From Planctomyces sp. SH-PL14 (GTDB lineage: Bacteria; Planctomycetota; Planctomycetia; Planctomycetales; Planctomycetaceae), in assembly GCF_001610835.1 (NCBI RefSeq), contig NZ_CP011270.1, positions 2,064,001 to 2,128,000 of the forward strand: DNA of 64,000 nucleotides. Reading direction: 5' to 3'. The position numbers and the translations under genes were made by a program. Numbering within the stretch: the stretch's first letter is position 1; each line of letters opens with the position of its first letter. Under the pieces are notes generated by a model. It saw only the letters and a list, made by a program, of their open reading frames with translations, was not told where the DNA came from and did not search any database. Of this stretch, positions 13,938 through 61,160 are shown piece after piece.

Positions 13938-14013
13938 GAATCCCATCCAGGGGCGAAAAGTCGAAGCGATATTCTACGCCAAGCGCTGAATGAAAGAAGG
14001 CGTAAAGAGTCGC

Positions 14014-14273
14014 GGGTCAAGGGCGGCCAGCCCTTGCCGCCGGAGGCACTCCTGTGAGGAACCGTGGTACACAACGGGCGTCCCCTTTGTGGTGCCGGCG
14101 TTGGGAACTCACCGCTCGCTTTGCAACCGCTGCGGGTTGGTGAGGGGGCATACGGCACGGCGTCCGCGTTTGGACACTCACTCCTTCAGACATCTCTCGA
14201 CGAGAGGGCCTCCGGCGGGCAAGGGGCATTCTGCCCCCTGCACCCCCTGACCAGGGTGCCCCTGGACCCGGTG
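14014..14273 (-). repeat. 320-bp intergenic element, copy 3 (right end missing)
   Basis: Inverted copy between the divergent uvrB and hydrolase genes. The left hairpins (CCTGGACCCGGT end) are intact. The right hairpin is CAAGGGC/GCCCTTG, shorter than in other copies but with both arms changed together. The terminal GGGTTTGAGC...GCCGGCAAGG block is absent. Confidence 0.92.
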
Positions 14274-14353
14274 GACGAGCCCTCACCGTGTTCTCGCGAC
14301 ATCACCATCGCCCGATATACTTCCCGGTCCAAACAATCCGCACAGGATTCTCC

Positions 14354-17247: not shown

Positions 17248-17381
17248 GGAAGACCTCAATGGCAACAGGCAGCGTCGTGAGACGGGAATGAACGATCCGG
17301 AGGGGCGATTGTGGACCCACGATCCCGGCAACGCAATCACACCGGAAGGCCGCGGCGGACGGAGGCTCCCTTGCGCCAGTG

Positions 17382-17710
17382 AACCGGGGTCCAGGGGGCC
17401 CCCCCTGGTGGGGAGTGCAGAGGGGCAACGCCCCTTTGCACGCCGGAGGCCCGGCCGTCGAGAGATGTCTGAAGGATCACGTATCCAAACGCGGACAACG
17501 TGCTGTATGCCCCCTCACCAACCCGCCAGGATTGCAACGCCAGCGGTGTGGTTTGAGGGAGTCCTCAACGCTCGTACCACAAAGCGGAAATCCGTAGTGC
17601 CCCACGGTTCCTCATGGAAGCGCCTCCGGCGGCAAGGGGTTGCCCCCTTGACCCCGGCCGCCGTCGTACGTTGGGTTTGAGTGAGCAGAGTCGTGCCGGC
17701 AAGGACGGTG
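17382..17710 (+). repeat. 320-bp intergenic element, copy 4
   Basis: Full-length copy between DUF1080 (5' side) and the racemase-fold gene (3' side). Left hairpin CCAGGGGG/CCCCCCTGG; second hairpin AGGGGC-aac-GCCCCT; right hairpin CAAGGGG-ttg-CCCCCTTG. The middle is slightly longer than in most copies (GTGTGGTTTGAGGGAG), as in copies 6 and 13. Confidence 0.95.
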
Positions 17711-21618: not shown

Positions 21619-21626
21619 GTGGACAG

Positions 21627-21945
21627 ATCCGGGGTCCAGGGGCTCGCCCCTGGTGGGGAGTGCAGAGGGGCAACGCCCCTTTGCCCGCCGGAGGCCCGGC
21701 CGTCGAGAGATGTCTGAAGGAGTGGGTGTCCAGGCGCGGACACGGTGCCGTATGCCCCTCACCAATCCGCGAAGAGTCCAAGGCGAGGGGGGAATCCTCC
21801 ACGCCGGTGCCGCAAAGGGGACGTCCGTTGCTTACTACGGTTCCTCATAGAAGTGCCTCCGGCGGCAAGGGGTTGCCCCCTTGACCCCAATGGCCGTCGC
21901 ACGTTGGGTTTGAGCGAGCCATATCGTGCCGGCAAGAACGCGGTT
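21627..21945 (+). repeat. 320-bp intergenic element, copy 5
   Basis: Full-length copy starting only 8 nt after the RNase Z-like stop codon. Left hairpin CCAGGGGC-tc-GCCCCTGG, second hairpin AGGGGC-aac-GCCCCT, right hairpin CAAGGGG-ttg-CCCCCTTG, right tip GAACGCGGTT. Confidence 0.95.
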
Positions 21946-22103
21946 CGAGTCAGGCCGCAGCAACCATCGCAGCCGCAATCCCTTACAACCTTAACAAAAA
22001 CACCAAACCCACATGCGAACCTGTTCGCCCCCCACGTGTCGACCGACAGCCCACCAGTGATGCCCAGAGCGTCATCCCCACCCGAACGGATTTGCCGCGG
22101 ATT

Positions 22104-23312: not shown

Positions 23313-23388
23313 AAAGCCCGCGGCAAGAATGCGGACGTCGCGACCGACTACGGGTGCATTCGCCGATGGTGGTCGCCCGATACTGGCC

Positions 23389-23719
23389 AACCGGGTCCAG
23401 GGGCACCCTGGTGGGGGATGCAAGGGGGCAACGCCCTCTTGCCCGCCGGAGGCTTGGCCGTCGAAGGATGTCTGAAGGAGGGAGTGTCCAGACGCGGACG
23501 ACGTGCCGTATGCCCCTTCACCAACCCGCGAGGATTGCAAAGCCAGCCGTGTGATGTGAGGGAGTTCTCAACGCGGGTACCACAAAAGGGACGCCCGTTG
23601 TGTACCACGGTTCCTCATGGAAGCGCCTCCGGCGGCAAGGGGGCGTGGCCCCCTTGACCCCTGGCTGCCGTAGCATGTTGGGCTTGAGCTATGGGAGTCC
23701 GTCCGGCGAGGACGCGGTT
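23389..23719 (+). repeat. 320-bp intergenic element, copy 6
   Basis: Full-length copy between convergent genes. The second hairpin is AAGGGGGC-aac-GCCCTCTT, a version in which both arms differ from the AGGGGC/GCCCCT of other copies. Tips are AACCGGGTCC and GGACGCGGTT. About 40 bp in front of it match the sequence in front of copy 2. Confidence 0.95.
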
Positions 23720-23794
23720 CGGGCCAGCGGGACAATCCATCCCGTCCCCCGTTGACCAACCACCATCCAGCGAATGCGCCTACAGGGCCGCCCG

Positions 23795-30515: not shown

Positions 30516-30628
30516 CGATGCCCCCCCAACACCACCCCTTTTTTAGTCGATACAACTTTTTCGTAATGGCCGTTGTTGATTATTGAACACGATTGACTCC
30601 GAATGACAGAGTTTACGATTGCAGGGCC

Positions 30629-31882
30629 ATGTTTGAAAACACACTCACATCCGCGAGCAAGTCGATACAAACGGTTATCTCGGTTCTTCGAACGAATGAT
30701 GCCCTGCGAGCGTTGTTGCTCAGGAAGGGGCAAGACGCTTCTGGCGCACAGCCAGAGCCTTCCAATCACACTGGCATTGACAACACGAAGTGCGAGTCAG
30801 ACGCCGTTTGCAACTTTCCCCAAGAGCTTCTCGCGGCTGCGCCGAACAAAATCGACTGGCAGATATTCGATCACTGCGCCAGCTTCACTCGGATCTACGC
30901 AATTTTTGAGCAGTTTGTCACCGATCTGGCAACCGCATACATAGGCGAGCTGCCAGTGCTTTACCCAACATATTCCGGCTTATCCGAATCAGTCAGAACG
31001 CAGCATCGCGTTGCAGTGGGTCAGATTCTTCAAAAGTGGAGCAGCGACGGTCCTTACAGGCACTTAACAGAACAATCTATTGTGAAGGGGCTATCTGACG
31101 GATTGGCCGCCGCACCTAAATATTCACTGCTGGCAGATGCATTCTTGATTGACCCCCACAATTATCGCCCTGCGGCGATTCGCAAAATTTTTGGCTACCT
31201 TGGATTTTCAGACTGCTGGCAAGGAGTCCAGCGGCATGCCGCGGTAACGAACTATATGGCCAAAATCTACGGTGGCAGCGAAACCGCAGAGTCAGTCCTG
31301 ACAGCAATTGTGGAGTTTCGCAATAATGCCAGCCATAGCGTCGTCTCGGACGTTGCCAGCGTCGACGACATCTGTAAATACGCTGAATTCTTACTAACGC
31401 TGTGCACGGCATTGTGCGACATTGTACACAAAGGAGTTATACGACGAAGAATTGAGGCGGGAATGGCACCTGAGATCGGAGTTGTCGTAACCCGATTTGG
31501 GAGAGCCTCTGGCGTCAGGTTAAGATCATGTGAGCTGTCGATCGGCGACGAGCTGTATATTCGTCGCGGTAATTCCTTTCGATCGGTTCGAGTGAAATCC
31601 ATCAGGAAGGTGCGCGAGGACCGCGAAAAAGTCGTTGTTACATCTGACGAGGAGTTCGGGGTATTACTAACGCATTCACCCGACGAAGGCTACATAGTAT
31701 ACAAGGCACCTCATCTCCACTCCGCCTTCGACAACGCGATCCAAGCCGATGAATCACTCGCTGAGGACGCGTCTGACGAACCAGACACAAACGGGCCTGC
31801 TGCGGACGAGGATTCCTCGTCCGCAGCAGACTTACCGCAAGGAACGTCCGTTAACGTTGACGGAGTGGCCGGGGCGAGCTGA
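30629..31882 (+). CDS. HEPN-domain protein (MAE_28990/RiboL-PSP-HEPN-like), predicted RNase
   Basis: 417 residues. The N-terminal half is all-helical and ends with the HEPN catalytic signature EFRNNASHS, giving R231-x4-H236, as in HEPN ribonucleases such as the MAE_28990/MAE_18760 and RiboL-PSP groups. Residues 275-370 are beta-rich (GVRLRSCELSIGDELYIRRG, VRVKSIRKVRED, KVVVTSDEEFGVLL) and resemble a small barrel domain. The last 45 residues are acidic and low complexity and contain a 33-nt perfect palindrome in DNA. It pairs with the DUF262 gene upstream; the two are probably one operon. ATG 30629 has AGGG before it. Function as a toxin or defence effector is inferred. Confidence 0.75.
   Translation: MFENTLTSASKSIQTVISVLRTNDALRALLLRKGQDASGAQPEPSNHTGIDNTKCESDAVCNFPQELLAAAPNKIDWQIFDHCASFTRIYAIFEQFVTDLATAYIGELPVLYPTYSGLSESVRTQHRVAVGQILQKWSSDGPYRHLTEQSIVKGLSDGLAAAPKYSLLADAFLIDPHNYRPAAIRKIFGYLGFSDCWQGVQRHAAVTNYMAKIYGGSETAESVLTAIVEFRNNASHSVVSDVASVDDICKYAEFLLTLCTALCDIVHKGVIRRRIEAGMAPEIGVVVTRFGRASGVRLRSCELSIGDELYIRRGNSFRSVRVKSIRKVREDREKVVVTSDEEFGVLLTHSPDEGYIVYKAPHLHSAFDNAIQADESLAEDASDEPDTNGPAADEDSSSAADLPQGTSVNVDGVAGAS
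31797..31829. repeat. 16-bp perfect inverted repeat inside HEPN gene 3' end
   Basis: Arms CTGCTGCGGACGAGGA and TCCTCGTCCGCAGCAG are separated by one base. It encodes part of the acidic C-terminal tail of the HEPN protein. Confidence 0.9.
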
Positions 31883-31904: not shown

Positions 31905-31975
31905 CGGCGCAGCCAGGTAGCACCATCGTCTCCCACCCATCCCCAACGCGCCGCACGTTTTGACACGCGACGGGG
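31905..31975. repeat. degenerate REP unit
   Basis: CAGCCAGGTAGCACCATCG followed by CCCATCCCCAACGCGCCGCAC and GACACGCGAC matches the linker and hairpin found beside the RAYT gene (33530-33608), with several mismatches. Confidence 0.75.
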
Positions 31976-32196
31976 GAGGGGGCTGGTGCGGGCTGATACC
32001 CCGATCACCAGAACGTGGCGCTCGCAAACTGAGCGGGGGGGGGGGGCTGACGTGAGGCACGTCAATTACAGTGATTAATAGCGAGGCTGTCATTAAGGTG
32101 GCGCAGCCAGGTAGTAGTCGACCTAGCGGTAAATGTCGCATTTTGTGAGAGTCTGTTCTGCAGACATAGAAGGAGCTGACGTTCAAGGAGGACGGC

Positions 32197-32667
32197 ATGG
32201 GGAAAAGCATCGGGAAGTGGGCGGTACAACTGACGGACGCGGAGCGGGAACAGCTTCAGAAGCAGACTCGGGCGCAGTCCGCCTCGGCACTGGCGGTCAA
32301 ACGGGCTCGAATCCTGCTGTTGTGCGATCAGAACCAAGCGGACGGCGGGAAGACGGATGATGAAGTTGCCGCACAGATCGGGATGACGCGGCGGCAGGTC
32401 CAGCGGATCCGGACGAAGTTCGCCCAGGAGGGACTGGAGACGACGCTCAGGCGGGAGGTGCGGTCGGATCGTGGAACCGCCCGGGTGCTGGACGGCCGCG
32501 CCGAAGCCCGATTGGTGGCGCTCTGTTGTGGTACGCCTCCGGAGGGGCGTCAGCAATGGACCATGCAGCTGCTGGCCGACGAACTGTGCCGGCTCAAGGT
32601 CGTCACCCACGTCTGCGCCGAGACCGTTCGGCAGACGCTGAAAAAAATCAGCTCAAGCCCTGGCTGA
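32197..32667 (+). CDS. IS630 transposase, first frame (DNA-binding half)
   Basis: 156 residues. Two helix-turn-helix regions: the first covers LTDAEREQLQKQTRAQSA to VAAQIGMTRRQVQRIRTKF, a homeodomain-like unit typical of IS630. Residues 75-140 form the second winged part. Frame ends soon after a run of seven A (32641-32647); a -1 shift there joins it to the catalytic frame, giving about 391 residues in total with the joint reading TLKKNQLKPWL, the expected IS630 linker. Confidence 0.9.
   Translation: MGKSIGKWAVQLTDAEREQLQKQTRAQSASALAVKRARILLLCDQNQADGGKTDDEVAAQIGMTRRQVQRIRTKFAQEGLETTLRREVRSDRGTARVLDGRAEARLVALCCGTPPEGRQQWTMQLLADELCRLKVVTHVCAETVRQTLKKISSSPG
32641..32647 (+). other. A7 slippery run in IS630 transposase
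   Basis: Seven A in the overlap; the first frame reads CTG AAA AAA ATC. A one-base backward slip gives AAA AAT CAG in the catalytic frame. It could act by programmed ribosomal frameshift or by transcriptional slippage. Confidence 0.75.
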
Positions 32668-33371
32668 CGCGACGGTTCTGCATACCCGAAGCGGATCGAG
32701 CCCGATTCGTCTCTCAGATGGAAGAGGTTCTGGACGTCTACCACGAACCTCGGGATGCTGCCCACCCGCTGATCTGCATGGACGAAGCATCGAAGCAGAT
32801 CGTCGCCGACACGGTCGCCGCGCTGCCGATGACGCCCGGCCAGCCTCGGCGGGAAGACCCGCACTACGAGCGGAAGGACGTCCAGGCGATCTTCGCGTTC
32901 TTCGATCCCGTCCGCGGCTGGCGGCGGATGTCGGTTCGGCGGACTCGAACGCGGCAGGACTGGGCGGAGGAAATCCGTCGGCTGCTGGACGAGGACTACC
33001 CCGCGGCGCAACAGGTGACGCTGGTCTGTGACAATCTGAACACGCACAACATCGCCAGTCTGTACGCGACGTTTGCGGCGTCGGAGGCGCATCGTCTGGC
33101 CCGCAAGCTGCGTCTGGCCCGCAAGCTGCGTCTGGTCCACACGCCACGAAGCGGCAGCTGGCTCAACATGGCGGAGATGGAACTGAGTGTGCTGACCCGG
33201 CAATGCATTGGGCGGCGGTTCGAGAATGCGGAGGCGATGACGGAGGAAATGGCCAAATGGGAAGCGAACCGCAACGAAAGCGGCCTGGGTGCGCACTGGC
33301 GATTCACAACCGCCGACGCCCGAATCACCTTCCGGAAGCTCTATCCCGTCGAATGCGACATTGAGCGATAG
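32643..33371 (+). CDS. IS630 transposase, second frame (DDE catalytic half)
   Basis: Read in the -1 frame from the A7 run. The DDE_3 catalytic residues are D in LICMDEASKQIV, D in VTLVCDNLNTHNIASLY and E in SWLNMAEMELSVL. Between the second D and the E there is an 18-bp tandem duplication (33093-33110 and 33111-33128) that repeats RLARKL. Whether this copy is active depends on the frameshift and on tolerance of the duplication. The frame has no good start of its own, so translation by shift is likely. Confidence 0.88.
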   Translation, partial: KNQLKPWLTRRFCIPEADRARFVSQMEEVLDVYHEPRDAAHPLICMDEASKQIVADTVAALPMTPGQPRREDPHYERKDVQAIFAFFDPVRGWRRMSVRRTRTRQDWAEEIRRLLDEDYPAAQQVTLVCDNLNTHNIASLYATFAASEAHRLARKLRLARKLRLVHTPRSGSWLNMAEMELSVLTRQCIGRRFENAEAMTEEMAKWEANRNESGLGAHWRFTTADARITFRKLYPVECDIER

Positions 33372-33383
33372 GTCGACCAGTAG

Positions 33384-33401
33384 GGTGCATGCCAATGCAC
33401 C
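33384..33401. repeat. REP palindrome 1
   Basis: GGTGCAT-gcca-ATGCACC, a perfect 7-bp stem with a 4-nt loop, immediately outside the right end of the IS630 element. It is the REP into which the element inserted. Confidence 0.85.
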
Positions 33402-33450
33402 ATCGCCTTTGATGACGCTTTCCGCATCGCCAACGACTCCTCACGTTCGT

Positions 33451-33468
33451 GGTGCGTTGACACGCATC
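33451..33468. repeat. REP palindrome 2
   Basis: GGTGCGT-tgac-ACGCATC, followed by CTACTCGAG as in the RAYT gene end. Same design as palindromes 1 and 3. Confidence 0.85.
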
Positions 33469-33469
33469 C

Positions 33470-33535
33470 TACTCGAGAGCCATATCGCGAATGCTCGCCG
33501 GTTCCTCGTGCCCCCATTCCTCGGGATAGCCAGGT
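33470..33535 (-). pseudogene. duplicated 3' end of the RAYT gene
   Basis: Read on the minus strand this stretch gives YPEEWGHEEPASIRDMALE and a stop. This closely matches the C terminus of the adjacent RAYT (YPKEWGRAEPESIGGLSLE and stop). With REP 2 it forms a unit repeated about 140 bp away from the real gene end. Only the C-terminal 20 or so codons are present. Confidence 0.85.
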
Positions 33536-33590
33536 AGCACCATCTTTCTCTTACCGGCTCCCAACACACCGCATGCCTCCTCTCGCGCGT

Positions 33591-33608
33591 GGTGCGTTGG
33601 CACGCACC
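33591..33608. repeat. REP palindrome 3, abutting RAYT stop codon
   Basis: GGTGCGT-tggc-ACGCACC. The last base touches the RAYT stop codon on the minus strand, so the hairpin is the first structure in the 3' untranslated region. Confidence 0.88.
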
Positions 33609-34157
33609 CTACTCGAGAGACAAGCCACCGATGCTCTCCGGCTCTGCACGCCCCCACTCCTTGGGATAGTGCCCCTCGCGGACGTACTTTCGGAACGTTG
33701 ACCACTCCCAATCCCAGGGGTGCGTCACGAGGCCGTGCGTTACAGGATTGAAGTGGATGTAGTCGAAGTGGGCCTCCAGATCCGCCTCGTCGCGAATCAC
33801 GTGCTCCCAGAATCGACGCTGCCAGACGCCAGAGGAACCCCGACGCTGACGGCTCGCCGACACCTCGGCTGTGAGCCCTCCTTCGCGCAACCAGGCCTTG
33901 GCAAACTCCCCCTTGATCTTCTTCCATCGCGTTGAAAAGTCCCGATCTCCCCGTGGCAGCCTCCACGGCGTGTGCAGATGATCTGGCAGGAGAACAATGG
34001 CAACGACCTCAAAGGGATCGCTCTCAGCAATTGATCGAATCACGTCACCGAGAAGCCTGCGCGCCGCCGCGTCTGCGAAGATCGGGATTCTGCGCTCTGT
34101 AACGACCGTAAAGAAGTATGTCCCTCCTTCGACGTACCATCGCCTGTAGTCTGACAT
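33609..34157 (-). CDS. REP-associated tyrosine transposase (RAYT)
   Basis: 182 residues, Y1/HUH superfamily (IS200/IS605-like). It has the N-terminal YVEGGTYFFTVVTERR strand, the HUH metal motif in VLLPDHLHTPWRLP (His-Leu-His) and the catalytic-tyrosine helix HFDYIHFNPVTHGLV. RAYTs are single-copy domesticated transposases linked to spread of REP palindromes. Here REP-like palindromes of the GGTGCGT...ACGCACC type lie directly after its stop codon and in an array downstream. Start 34157 (MSDYRRWYVEGG) matches family N termini. Confidence 0.92.
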   Translation of the reverse strand: MSDYRRWYVEGGTYFFTVVTERRIPIFADAAARRLLGDVIRSIAESDPFEVVAIVLLPDHLHTPWRLPRGDRDFSTRWKKIKGEFAKAWLREGGLTAEVSASRQRRGSSGVWQRRFWEHVIRDEADLEAHFDYIHFNPVTHGLVTHPWDWEWSTFRKYVREGHYPKEWGRAEPESIGGLSLE

Positions 34158-45719: not shown

Positions 45720-45821
45720 GTTGGTTGGGGGGGGAAGTTGCGAGAGGCCGCGGAGTCTTTCCTTCGGGCTTATACCGCCCACCGCTGAAAAAGGTTCCCA
45801 AGAAAATGCGCGGCCCAACAT

Positions 45822-46142
45822 CACCGGGTCCAGGGGCACCCTGGTCAGGGGGTGCAGGGGGCAGAATGCCCCTTGCCCGCCGGAGGCCTGGCCGTCGAGA
45901 GATGTCTGAAGGAGTTTGTATCCAAACGCGGACACCGTGTCGGATGCCCCCTCACCAACCCGCGGGGATTGCGGCACGAGTGTGGAGTCCTCAGCGCCGG
46001 TCCCACAAAGGGGACACCCGTTGTGTCCCATAGTTCCTCATGGAAGAGGCCTCCGGCGGCAAGGGGGTGAGACCCCCTTGACCCCGGCTGCCGTTGCACG
46101 TTGGGTTTGAGCTATGGGAGTCGTGTCGGCAAGGACGGTGTT
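45822..46142 (+). repeat. 320-bp intergenic element, copy 9
   Basis: Full-length copy between the divergent sigma factor and SGNH genes. Second hairpin GCAGGGGGC-agaat-GCCCCTTGC; right hairpin CAAGGGGG-tgaga-CCCCCTTG (an unusually long loop). Tips: CACCGGGTCC and GGACGGTGTT. Confidence 0.95.
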
Positions 46143-46266
46143 CGAGCCGGCCGGATGTCCCACCGCTTTACTTCGAGCCAATCGAAACGACAGACTGCGC
46201 CACTCACCGGGCGCTGACGGGAGCCAATAGACCAGGTGCCGCTCTGAGCGGCGGGGGATGTCGATA

Positions 46267-47758: not shown

Positions 47759-47832
47759 CGGTGGAGGGGTGCGGATCGGTGCGTTCGCCGAATAGTGGCC
47801 GGTCGAGGAGTGAGTTGGGTCGCGGTATCTCG

Positions 47833-48151
47833 AAGCCCATTCTTGCCGGCACAGCGTTGATAGCTCAAACCCAACGTGCCACGGCAGCCGGGGTCAAGGG
47901 GGTCACCCCTTGCCGCCGGAGGCGCTTCGATGAGGAACCGTGGTAAGTAACGGGCGTCCCCTTTGTGGAACCGGCGGTGAGAACTTCCCGCTCGCCCTGG
48001 ACTCCCCGCAGGGTGGTGAGGGGGCATACGGCACGGTGTCCGCGTTTGGACACGATCTCCTTCAGACGTCTCTCGACGGCCAGGCCTCCGGCGGGCAAAG
48101 GGGCGTTGCCCCTCTGCACTCCCCACCAGGGGTGCCCCCTGGACCCCGGTT
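47833..48151 (-). repeat. 320-bp intergenic element, copy 10
   Basis: Full-length copy in the inverted orientation between two co-directional genes. Second hairpin AGGGGC/GCCCCT; right hairpin AAGGGGTG/CACCCCTT region. The tip on the low-coordinate side is degenerate, the other is GGACCCCGGTT. Confidence 0.94.
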
Positions 48152-53607: not shown

Positions 53608-53616
53608 CCGGTCTCG

Positions 53617-53940
53617 AACAGCGTTCTTGCCGGCACGACGTCCATCGCTCAAACCCAACGTGCCACGGCAGCCAGGGGTCAAGGGGGCCACGTCCCCTTG
53701 CCGCCGGAGGCGCTTCCCTGAGGAACCGCGGTAAACAACGGACGTCCCTCTTGTGGGACCGGCGTTGAGGACTCCACGCTCGCTCCGCAGTCCCCGCGGG
53801 TTGGCGAGGGGGCATCCGGCACGTCATCCGCGTCTGGACACTCACTCCTTCAGATATCTCTCGACGGCCAGGCCTCCGGCGGGCAAGAGGGCGTTGCCCC
53901 CTTGCATCCCCCACCAGGGGTTACCCCCCTGGACCCCGGT
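53617..53940 (-). repeat. 320-bp intergenic element, copy 11
   Basis: Full-length inverted copy starting 10 nt after the membrane protein stop. Hairpin AAGGGGGC-aac-GCCCTCTT (the compensated form also seen in copy 6), left hairpin CCAGGGG/CCCCCTGG. Confidence 0.95.
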
Positions 53941-56996: not shown

Positions 56997-57315
56997 AACC
57001 GGGTCCAGGGGCACCCTGGTGGGGAGTGCAGAGGGGCAACGCCCCTTTGCCCGCCGGAGGCCTGGCCGTCGAGAGATGCCTGAAGGAGTGAGTGTCCAAG
57101 CGCGGACGCCGTGCCGTATGCCCCCTCACCAACCCGCGGGGATTCCGAAGCGAGCGGGGAGTGCTCAACGCCGGTACCACAAAACGGACGTCCGTTGTGT
57201 ACCACGGTTCCACATGGAAGCGCCTCCGGCGGCAAGGGGGCGTGGCCCCCTTGACCCCGGCTGCCGTAGTACGTTGGGTTTGAGCGAGCAAAGCCGTGCC
57301 GGCAAGGACGCGGTT
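56997..57315 (+). repeat. 320-bp intergenic element, copy 12
   Basis: Full-length copy with the clearest tips, AACCGGGTCC and GGACGCGGTT, between the convergent hpnE and adaptor genes. Hairpins: CCAGGGG-ca-CCCTGG, AGGGGC-aac-GCCCCT, CAAGGGGGC-gtg-GCCCCCTTG. Confidence 0.96.
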
Positions 57316-58499: not shown

Positions 58500-58691
58500 C
58501 TGACCCTCGAGCGAAAAGAACTTGGCAAACGGGACGGGAATGAACGGGAGTTCGGCAGCTTCCTGATGATCAAGGTACGGCATGGTCTGGCGGCGTTGCA
58601 ACTTGGAGGGCTCTCGCCGGTCGTCTTGGGAGGTGTCTGCTGGATGGCGGTCAATTGCCTCGTCGCCCCGAATGATCCATCACGCGCCCCC

Positions 58692-58901
58692 AACCGGGTC
58701 CAGGGGCACCCTGGTCAGGGGGTGCAGGGGGCCTGTGTTGTTTTTTGGCCCTCTGCCCGCCGGAGGCTTGGCCGTCAGGAGATGTCTGAAGGAGGGAGTG
58801 TCCAGGCGCGGACACCGTGCCGGATGCCCCCTCACCAACCCGCTGGGACTGCAATGCCAGCGGTGCAGCTTGAGGGAGTCCTCAATGCCGGTCCCACAAA
58901 C
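58692..58901 (+). repeat. 320-bp intergenic element, copy 13 (right end missing)
   Basis: Left two thirds of the element between the divergent adaptor and M28 genes. The left tip is AACCGGGTCC. The second hairpin has an expanded loop (GGGGGC then CTGTGTTGTTTTTT before GGCCCTC). It stops at GTCCCACAAA; the right hairpin and right tip are absent. Confidence 0.92.
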
Positions 58902-59000
58902 GCGTCCCCAATGCGGAGCCAACGTCGCTCTCCGGTCGACGCCCCGGGGAGTCACACCGGCCGCTGGTCGGGGACTTGGCGTTCCCGATAGGATCGCCGC

Positions 59001-60749: not shown

Positions 60750-60839
60750 TCGCAAAAATTCGAGGTTTCGGTGACAAATGTCAACGTGGGAGACGAAGCC
60801 GCAGCGTCGAAAGCGGAGCGTGCCGAGTGCATTTGCTCG

Positions 60840-61160
60840 AACCGCGTCCTTGCCGGCGCGGCTCGATAGCTCAAACCCATCGTGCGACTGCCGCTGGGGT
60901 CAAGGGGGTCTCACCCCCTTGACCCCGGAGGCACTTCCATGAGGAACCGTGGAACACAACCGGTGTCCGCTTTGTGGGACTGGCGTTGTGGCTTCGATAC
61001 TCGCTCTGGAATCCCCGTGGGTTGGTGAGGGGGCATCCGACACCTTGTCCGCGTTTGGACACGCACACCTTCAGACATCTCTCGACGAGAGGGCCTCCGG
61101 CGGGCAAGGGGGCGTTGCCCCCTTGCATCCCCCACCAGGGGTGACCCCCTGGACCCCGAC
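60840..61160 (-). repeat. 320-bp intergenic element, copy 14
   Basis: Full-length inverted copy in the divergent MarR/SDR intergenic region. Both the first (CAAGGGGGTCTCACCCCCTTG) and the second (GCAAGGGGGC-aac-GCCCCCTTGC) hairpins are fully paired variants of the family pattern. Low-side tip AACCGCGTCC. Confidence 0.95.

Follow-up and report, generated by a model that had tools for sequence, protein, structure and literature searches.

The 3' end of a RAYT gene is repeated in an old and decaying cluster of REP-type hairpins

Behind a RAYT (TnpA-REP) gene in a 64,000-nucleotide stretch of DNA, hereafter the window, the end of the gene is repeated together with the REP-type hairpin that overlaps its stop codon. 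We conclude that this locus is probably a REPtron with a single-copy RAYT, in which a REPIN-like unit was tandemly duplicated along with its 5' flank. The cluster is old and decaying, rather than an array caught growing. This kind of arrangement was already described in 2010, and the window locus is a new example of it.

The RAYT gene and the hairpins behind it

33609..34157, (-) strand: RAYT (TnpA-REP) gene, 182 aa; start at 34157, stop codon TAG at 33609-33611
33591..33612, (-) strand: REP1, GTAG-GGTGCGT-GCCA-ACGCACC; 36.8 bits with the covariance model (training sequence)
33527..33544, (+) strand: relic of the inverted REP of unit 1, TAGCCAGGTAGCACCATC; flanks as in REP3, 14 nt of the hairpin lost
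33472..33529, (-) strand: second copy of the RAYT 3' end, the 57 nt preceding the stop; YPEEWGHEEPASIRDMALE versus YPKEWGRAEPESIGGLSLE
33451..33472, (-) strand: REP2, one unpaired stem position; 33.1 bits with the model (training sequence)
33380..33401, (+) strand: REP3, inverted relative to the gene; 34.1 bits with the model (training sequence)

A preliminary description of this DNA had recognized a RAYT gene with REPs, and our searches bear this out. The protein matches the NCBIfam model NF047646 REP_Tyr_transpos with 183.8 bits (cut-off, 80; E = 1.6e-54) and Pfam Y1_Tnp with 23.9 bits (E = 4.8e-5), barely above the cut-off of 23. Residues 1 to 169 align with PDB 4er8 “TnpArep” (E = 7.8e-37), which we take to be the E. 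coli TnpA-REP. The HUH histidines are conserved (HLH in the RAYT, HMH in 4er8), as is the catalytic Tyr (that of DYIHFNP, at chain position 115 of 4er8), and a stretch of ~17 residues (around 86 to 106) has no equivalent in 4er8. Judged by the family model and the HUH and Tyr residues, the window protein is a RAYT; with these catalytic residues kept, it would be expected, by analogy with E. coli TnpA-REP, to bind and nick single-stranded GTAG hairpins. As far as its sequence and the portion of PMC8266576 used here go, it has in common with the TnpA-REP of 4er8 that it is an HUH and Tyr homologue with a GTAG hairpin type of substrate.

The genome searched is one contig of 8.44 Mb, in which one full RAYT gene was found; the closest RAYTs found are Planctomycetota records. 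Pfam detects a second Y1 gene (89.5 bits) in the genome, at 6.247 Mb. As a RAYT it was rejected, with 29.4 bits against the RAYT cut-off of 80 and 66.8 bits, above the cut-off, for the NCBIfam IS200/IS605 transposase. At genome positions 1773427 to 1773579 (L005) lies a RAYT-like piece that covers residues 11 to 61 (51 residues) with 47% identity and is apparently a relic of another RAYT. Window positions 30593 to 31882, adjoining the REP cluster, encode a HEPN-domain protein (MAE_28990/MAE_18760-like; E = 1.9e-39).

The layout that the preliminary description had reported is confirmed for all three hairpins. At the RAYT stop stands the GGTGCGT/ACGCACC hairpin of REP1, with the stop codon forming part of its GTAG head; the gene end and a second hairpin recur about 140 bp further on, and REP3 follows. 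The direct repeat spans 93 nt with 78% identity and a spacing of 140, and holds the last 57 to 58 coding bases, the TAG and the REP (BLAST, 78.5%; E = 1.4e-18). The TAG of REP2 is the stop of the duplicated fragment, so that in both copies the stop sits within GTAG. The stem of REP3 differs from that of REP1 by a single compensated pair (GGTGCAT/ATGCACC); the change in the REP2 stem is uncompensated. A REP pattern written to fit REP1 to REP3 has 3 matches in the window and 0 in 100 shuffles, and the 271-nt hairpin stretch folds better than 200 of 200 shuffles (z = -4.03).

Absent from the preliminary description were the inversion of REP3 and the REPIN-like pairs, as well as the insertion in a GTAG and the eroded unit described below. 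REP2 and REP3 form a head-to-head REPIN-like pair of ~93 bp with GTAG outward, and the repeat unit reads RAYT end, REP, spacer, inverted REP, CTGGC. The duplicated fragment begins exactly at the end of the common CTGGC tail of the preceding unit. It differs from the gene at 4, 4, and 7 sites in codon positions 1, 2, and 3, giving no clear sign of selection. Its C terminus shares on average 5.8 of 15 residues with relatives and that of the gene 5.6 of 15, as measured on the 16 of 100 loci with an equally long tail, the others having been dropped. BLAST with the 5' end and middle of the gene found no further RAYT sequence in the locus. Upstream of the RAYT, no REP was found by self-comparison of the 3.5-kb locus (L004), by a whole-genome model search, or by scanning the 1.5 kb ahead of the start codon with the pattern; a decayed one there is possible.

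Decay of the cluster and the IS630-family insertion

32114..33380, (+) strand: IS630-family element, 1,267 bp; transposase in two overlapping frames
31910..31968, (-) strand: unit 3, an eroded repeat unit; hairpin relic 31953-31968 (by eye), spacer, CAGCCAGGTAGCACCATC relic 31910-31927

The GTAG of REP3 is interrupted by an insertion at its TA, now present at 32112-32113 and 33381-33382. By its sequence, the inserted element belongs to the IS630 family: it has a DDE transposase (NF033545, 62.8 bits in one frame and 129.2 in the other, with a cut-off of 100; Pfam DDE_3 also matched), inverted ends of 31 nt with 84% identity, and the TA target duplication. Its transposase has one match in the genome; no second genomic copy was found. 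A perfect 18-nt tandem duplication lies inside the transposase gene (window positions 33093 to 33128).

Excising the element and one TA yields GGCGCAGCCAGGTAGGGTGCATGCC, with the empty site GGCGCAGCCAGG-TA-GGGTGCATGCC. The left flank of this site recurs in unit 1 (33527) and at 31910, there as CAGCCAGGTAGCACCATC, in which 14 nt of the hairpin are missing. REP3 and the empty site, with a left flank matching the relics at 33527 and 31910, thus show that the unit includes an inverted partner REP, and the recurrence at 31910 marks 31910 to 31968 as an eroded third unit beyond the IS element. Unit 3 is 78% identical to unit 1 over 46 nt, a match with an E value of 0.04 to 0.05 taken alone. The genome has a single exact copy of the 18-mer CAGCCAGGTAGCACCATC, and allowing 1 mismatch adds only the one at 33527; a third genomic match needs 3 mismatches, at which tolerance the reversed control likewise has 3 matches. 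The spacers of units 1 and 3 are more alike than either is to that of unit 2, and the 14-nt loss is common to both, which shows not one simple duplication but a mosaic history.

The structure points to a history in which one REPIN-like pair and its 5' flank would have been copied by tandem duplication. Because the REP overlaps the stop codon, the duplicated flank consists of the last 57 coding bases of the RAYT. After the duplication, the copies would have diverged, one inverted REP would have lost its 14 nt, the IS630-family element would have entered another, and a further copy would have eroded; the divergence, the loss, the insertion and the erosion themselves are seen directly in the DNA.

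The hairpins in the genome and in relatives

Allowing up to 2 mismatches, we found the REP pattern 3 times in the genome, each time at the RAYT locus, and its reversed control 0 times. We also searched with a covariance model trained on REP1 to REP3 and five REPs of relatives, scoring 150 of 1276 genome candidates, so that weaker copies may be missed. The next-best match is a diverged copy at 6,978,051 (GTAGGGTGTATGTCAATACACC; 28.1 bits, E = 2e-4) with two compensated stem pairs. Below it, among the 150 candidates scored, a REP of a second type (25.1 bits, at 5.41 Mb) is followed by a few degenerate hairpins. In DNA searches for dispersed copies of units 1 and 2 and of the unit 3 region, only the local ones stand out, the rest having E values of ~0.9 or more. 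The preliminary description had allowed that the array would be no more than a tandem duplication if the genome held no other REPs of this type. This is nearly the case: besides the three local matches there are one clear diverged copy and a few degenerate ones.

The model was also run on 39 relatives. Counting the genome of the window, and with 150 candidates scored per genome, 19 of 40 have matches with E ≤ 0.1 (at most 45 in any one genome) and 21 have none at that threshold. This type of hairpin is therefore dispersed in some relatives and not in the genome of the window.

Two other repeats were noticed in the genome. One, a second type of REPIN that combines GTAGGGTGCGTTGAGGCTTTGCGAAACGCACC and GTAGGGTGCGTTGAGTCTTCGAAACGCACC, occurs at 12 distinct places (E ≤ 1e-3), mostly decayed; 8 of the 12 lie within 140 kb, and the places are at 7.95 to 8.09 Mb, at 5.41 Mb, and elsewhere (L177-L184, L186-L188, L192). 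Genome-wide RAYT and Y1 searches placed no RAYT or Y1 gene near these REPINs. The other is a dispersed repeat of ~245 to 270 nt, starting near ACCGGGTCCAGGGGCACCCTGGT, with 1153 first-look candidates in the 8.44-Mb genome. All 40 of the 40 candidates scored, the window copy included, match over approximately the full length with 88 to 100% identity. If most candidates are real, this repeat accounts for a few per cent of the genome, and it is far more striking than the RAYT and hairpin finding. Its copies in the window include the following.

57014-57258, 795-1132, 14011-14279, 17381-17707, 21626-21947, 23384-23732: copies of the dispersed repeat
45818-46155, 47829-48140, 53612-53928, 58678-58956, 60834-61158: further copies

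Origin of the repeated gene end

We compared 97 RAYT loci, namely, the window and 96 of 100 relatives (L102-L105 were left out for their short frames); some share a genome or have nearly identical ones and are thus nonindependent. Pieces of 210 nt from the 3' end, 5' end, and middle of each gene were compared by BLAST with the remainder of the locus. Duplications of at least 20 coding nt involve the 3' end in 6 loci and the 5' end and the middle in 8 loci each; with a minimum of 40 nt, the counts for the 3' end, 5' end, and middle are 5, 4, and 7, so that a specificity of RAYT duplication for the 3' end was rejected. A mini-RAYT in Nostocales cyanobacterium HT-58-2 (L050), 245 to 501 nt after the RAYT stop, fuses 88 nt of the gene start to 61 nt of its end between REPs; it looks like an internally deleted derivative and is possibly a step towards a REPIN. 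In L056, the gene start and an upstream REP form a 166-nt unit present in three copies, including the gene's own, and in L025 a 40-nt gene end with a REP is located upstream. These three cases indicate that coding ends are carried along from either side. L049 apparently has a second, convergent gene, with matches of 61 to 62% over the 3' end and middle. The stop codon stands in a G-TAG-G context at 11 of 101 loci, not all 11 of which have a clean hairpin following.

The fragment might instead be the last remnant of a complete second RAYT: a tandem paralogue, accompanied by a REP pair of its own, would have lost its body by deletion. Whole or internally deleted neighbour copies exist at related loci (L050, L049, and L025), and both the 22% divergence and a C terminus no further from relatives than the gene's own would fit an old paralogue. 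This history, however, requires two events; the start of the fragment at the end of the preceding CTGGC tail is what a tandem unit would lead one to expect, and the BLAST searches with the gene's 5' end and middle returned nothing more of a RAYT in the locus. We consider such a remnant unlikely, and we favour the tandem duplication of a REPIN-like unit in a REPtron, against which counts the missing upstream REP, RAYTs usually being flanked on both sides.

The preliminary description had read the locus as an array growing from the 3' end of its own transposase gene. A nascent REP family, with the RAYT now generating the array, would agree with the near restriction of the REPs to the RAYT locus and with the compensated stem changes, one separating REP1 from REP3 and two in the 6.98-Mb copy, that preserve hairpin pairing. 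But the divergence of the copies, the 14-nt losses, the uncompensated change in REP2, the split by the IS630-family element, and the eroded unit all speak of age. The lack of dispersal also tells against growth, and the diverged copy elsewhere (E = 2e-4) suggests a past population, not a starting one; nor do the 97 loci show a 3'-end bias. We regard a nascent family as very improbable, and the locus does not settle how REPs originate, a question on which it had been thought to bear. Nor can we give much credence to a chance tandem duplication with hairpins that are merely transcription terminators of the RAYT and IS630 genes. Their position directly behind stop codons would suit terminators, yet a GTAG head is present in 3 of 3 hairpins next to a RAYT, hairpins matching the model are dispersed in some relatives, and, by eye, no T-run follows directly 3' of the hairpins.

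How the duplication arose is a separate matter. At its junction, the position of which is only approximate with copies too diverged to place exactly, there is a 2-nt CT overlap. The portion of PMC8266576 used here gives C|T as the in vitro cleavage site of TnpA-REP enzymes. Breakpoint pairs containing CT make up 1.6% of the 8,736 enumerated and 9.8% of the subset that overlaps by 2 nt or more; the share hardly differs (1.2% or 1.6%) between a parent sequence with one base missing and one with two extra at the joint. The CT is suggestive as a trace of RAYT cleavage. Among 11 tandem duplications at 9 related loci, too few for a test of C|T junctions, CT is present in 0 of 5 with an overlap of 2 to 10 nt and in 2 of all 11, both with an overlap of at least 26 nt; AG, which is CT on the other strand, is present in 3 of the 5 short overlaps, twice within GTAG. 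The lack of CT in the short overlaps leaves RAYT catalysis of such arrays without general support. That the RAYT catalysed the duplication in the window, a proposal resting on one junction, strikes us as rather doubtful; ordinary replication slippage between hairpins may have made it instead. It is very improbable that the RAYT itself made the tandem unit through C|T cleavage with strand transfer that works on its own 3' end and solely in cis. If true, this would be a REPIN system that duplicates locally and hardly ever disperses, and a natural stage between REPs tied to a gene and mobile REPINs.

In the part of PMC6006769 used here, a REPtron is a tnpA-REP gene that often has several flanking REPs, and the window gene with its three downstream hairpins is a REPtron in this loose definition. 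The rayt element of Nunvar et al. 2010 (PMC2817692) is, in the passages cited, always flanked by two inverted REPs; with no upstream REP found, the window locus is not a rayt element in this strict two-sided sense. The head and imperfect palindrome of a GTAG-type REP are present in three copies, without the many dispersed copies of such a REP. Similarly, there is the inverted pair of a REPIN (REP2 and REP3, with relics in units 1 and 3) without dissemination as a unit. We speak of REP-type hairpins and REPIN-like pairs because a genome-wide population is missing.

Other parts of this arrangement also have precedents. In P. fluorescens, tandem REPIN clusters consist of f1-REPIN-f2 units with a short f2, according to the sections consulted of Bertels and Rainey 2011 (PMC3116915). 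On that description, the window cluster shares with them tandem units of a 5' flank, an inverted REP pair, and a short 3' flank, and differs in that its f1 is RAYT coding sequence and its units are diverged and degraded. REPtrons are also reported from species that have no GTAG repeats (Di Nocera et al. 2013, PMC3733652), and GTAG REPs often provide the TAG stops of flanking genes, as the excerpt used of that paper states. The window has in common with these REPtrons, as far as the excerpt goes, a RAYT with GTAG REPs, no dispersed family, and a TAG stop supplied by GTAG; unlike them, no REP was found upstream of its RAYT.

Among the closest precedents are four RAYT 3' ends that Nunvar et al. 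2010 (PMC2817692) reported from within REP arrays (BIMEs). The passages cited from that paper, the RAYTs of which are gammaproteobacterial with a few further genomes, also report four genomes with REPs accumulating near rayt and REPs immediately behind the stop codon. As in the rayt and BIME cases, a RAYT end and its downstream REP are repeated inside a REP array; unlike those cases, as described in the text of the paper, the window has its stop inside the REP head, a probably planctomycete host, and almost no genome-wide REP population. The locus thus adds a clear, probably planctomycete case of a REP cluster that carries the end of a RAYT gene, and the stop codon inside the REP head suffices to account for coding sequence moving along with the repeat.
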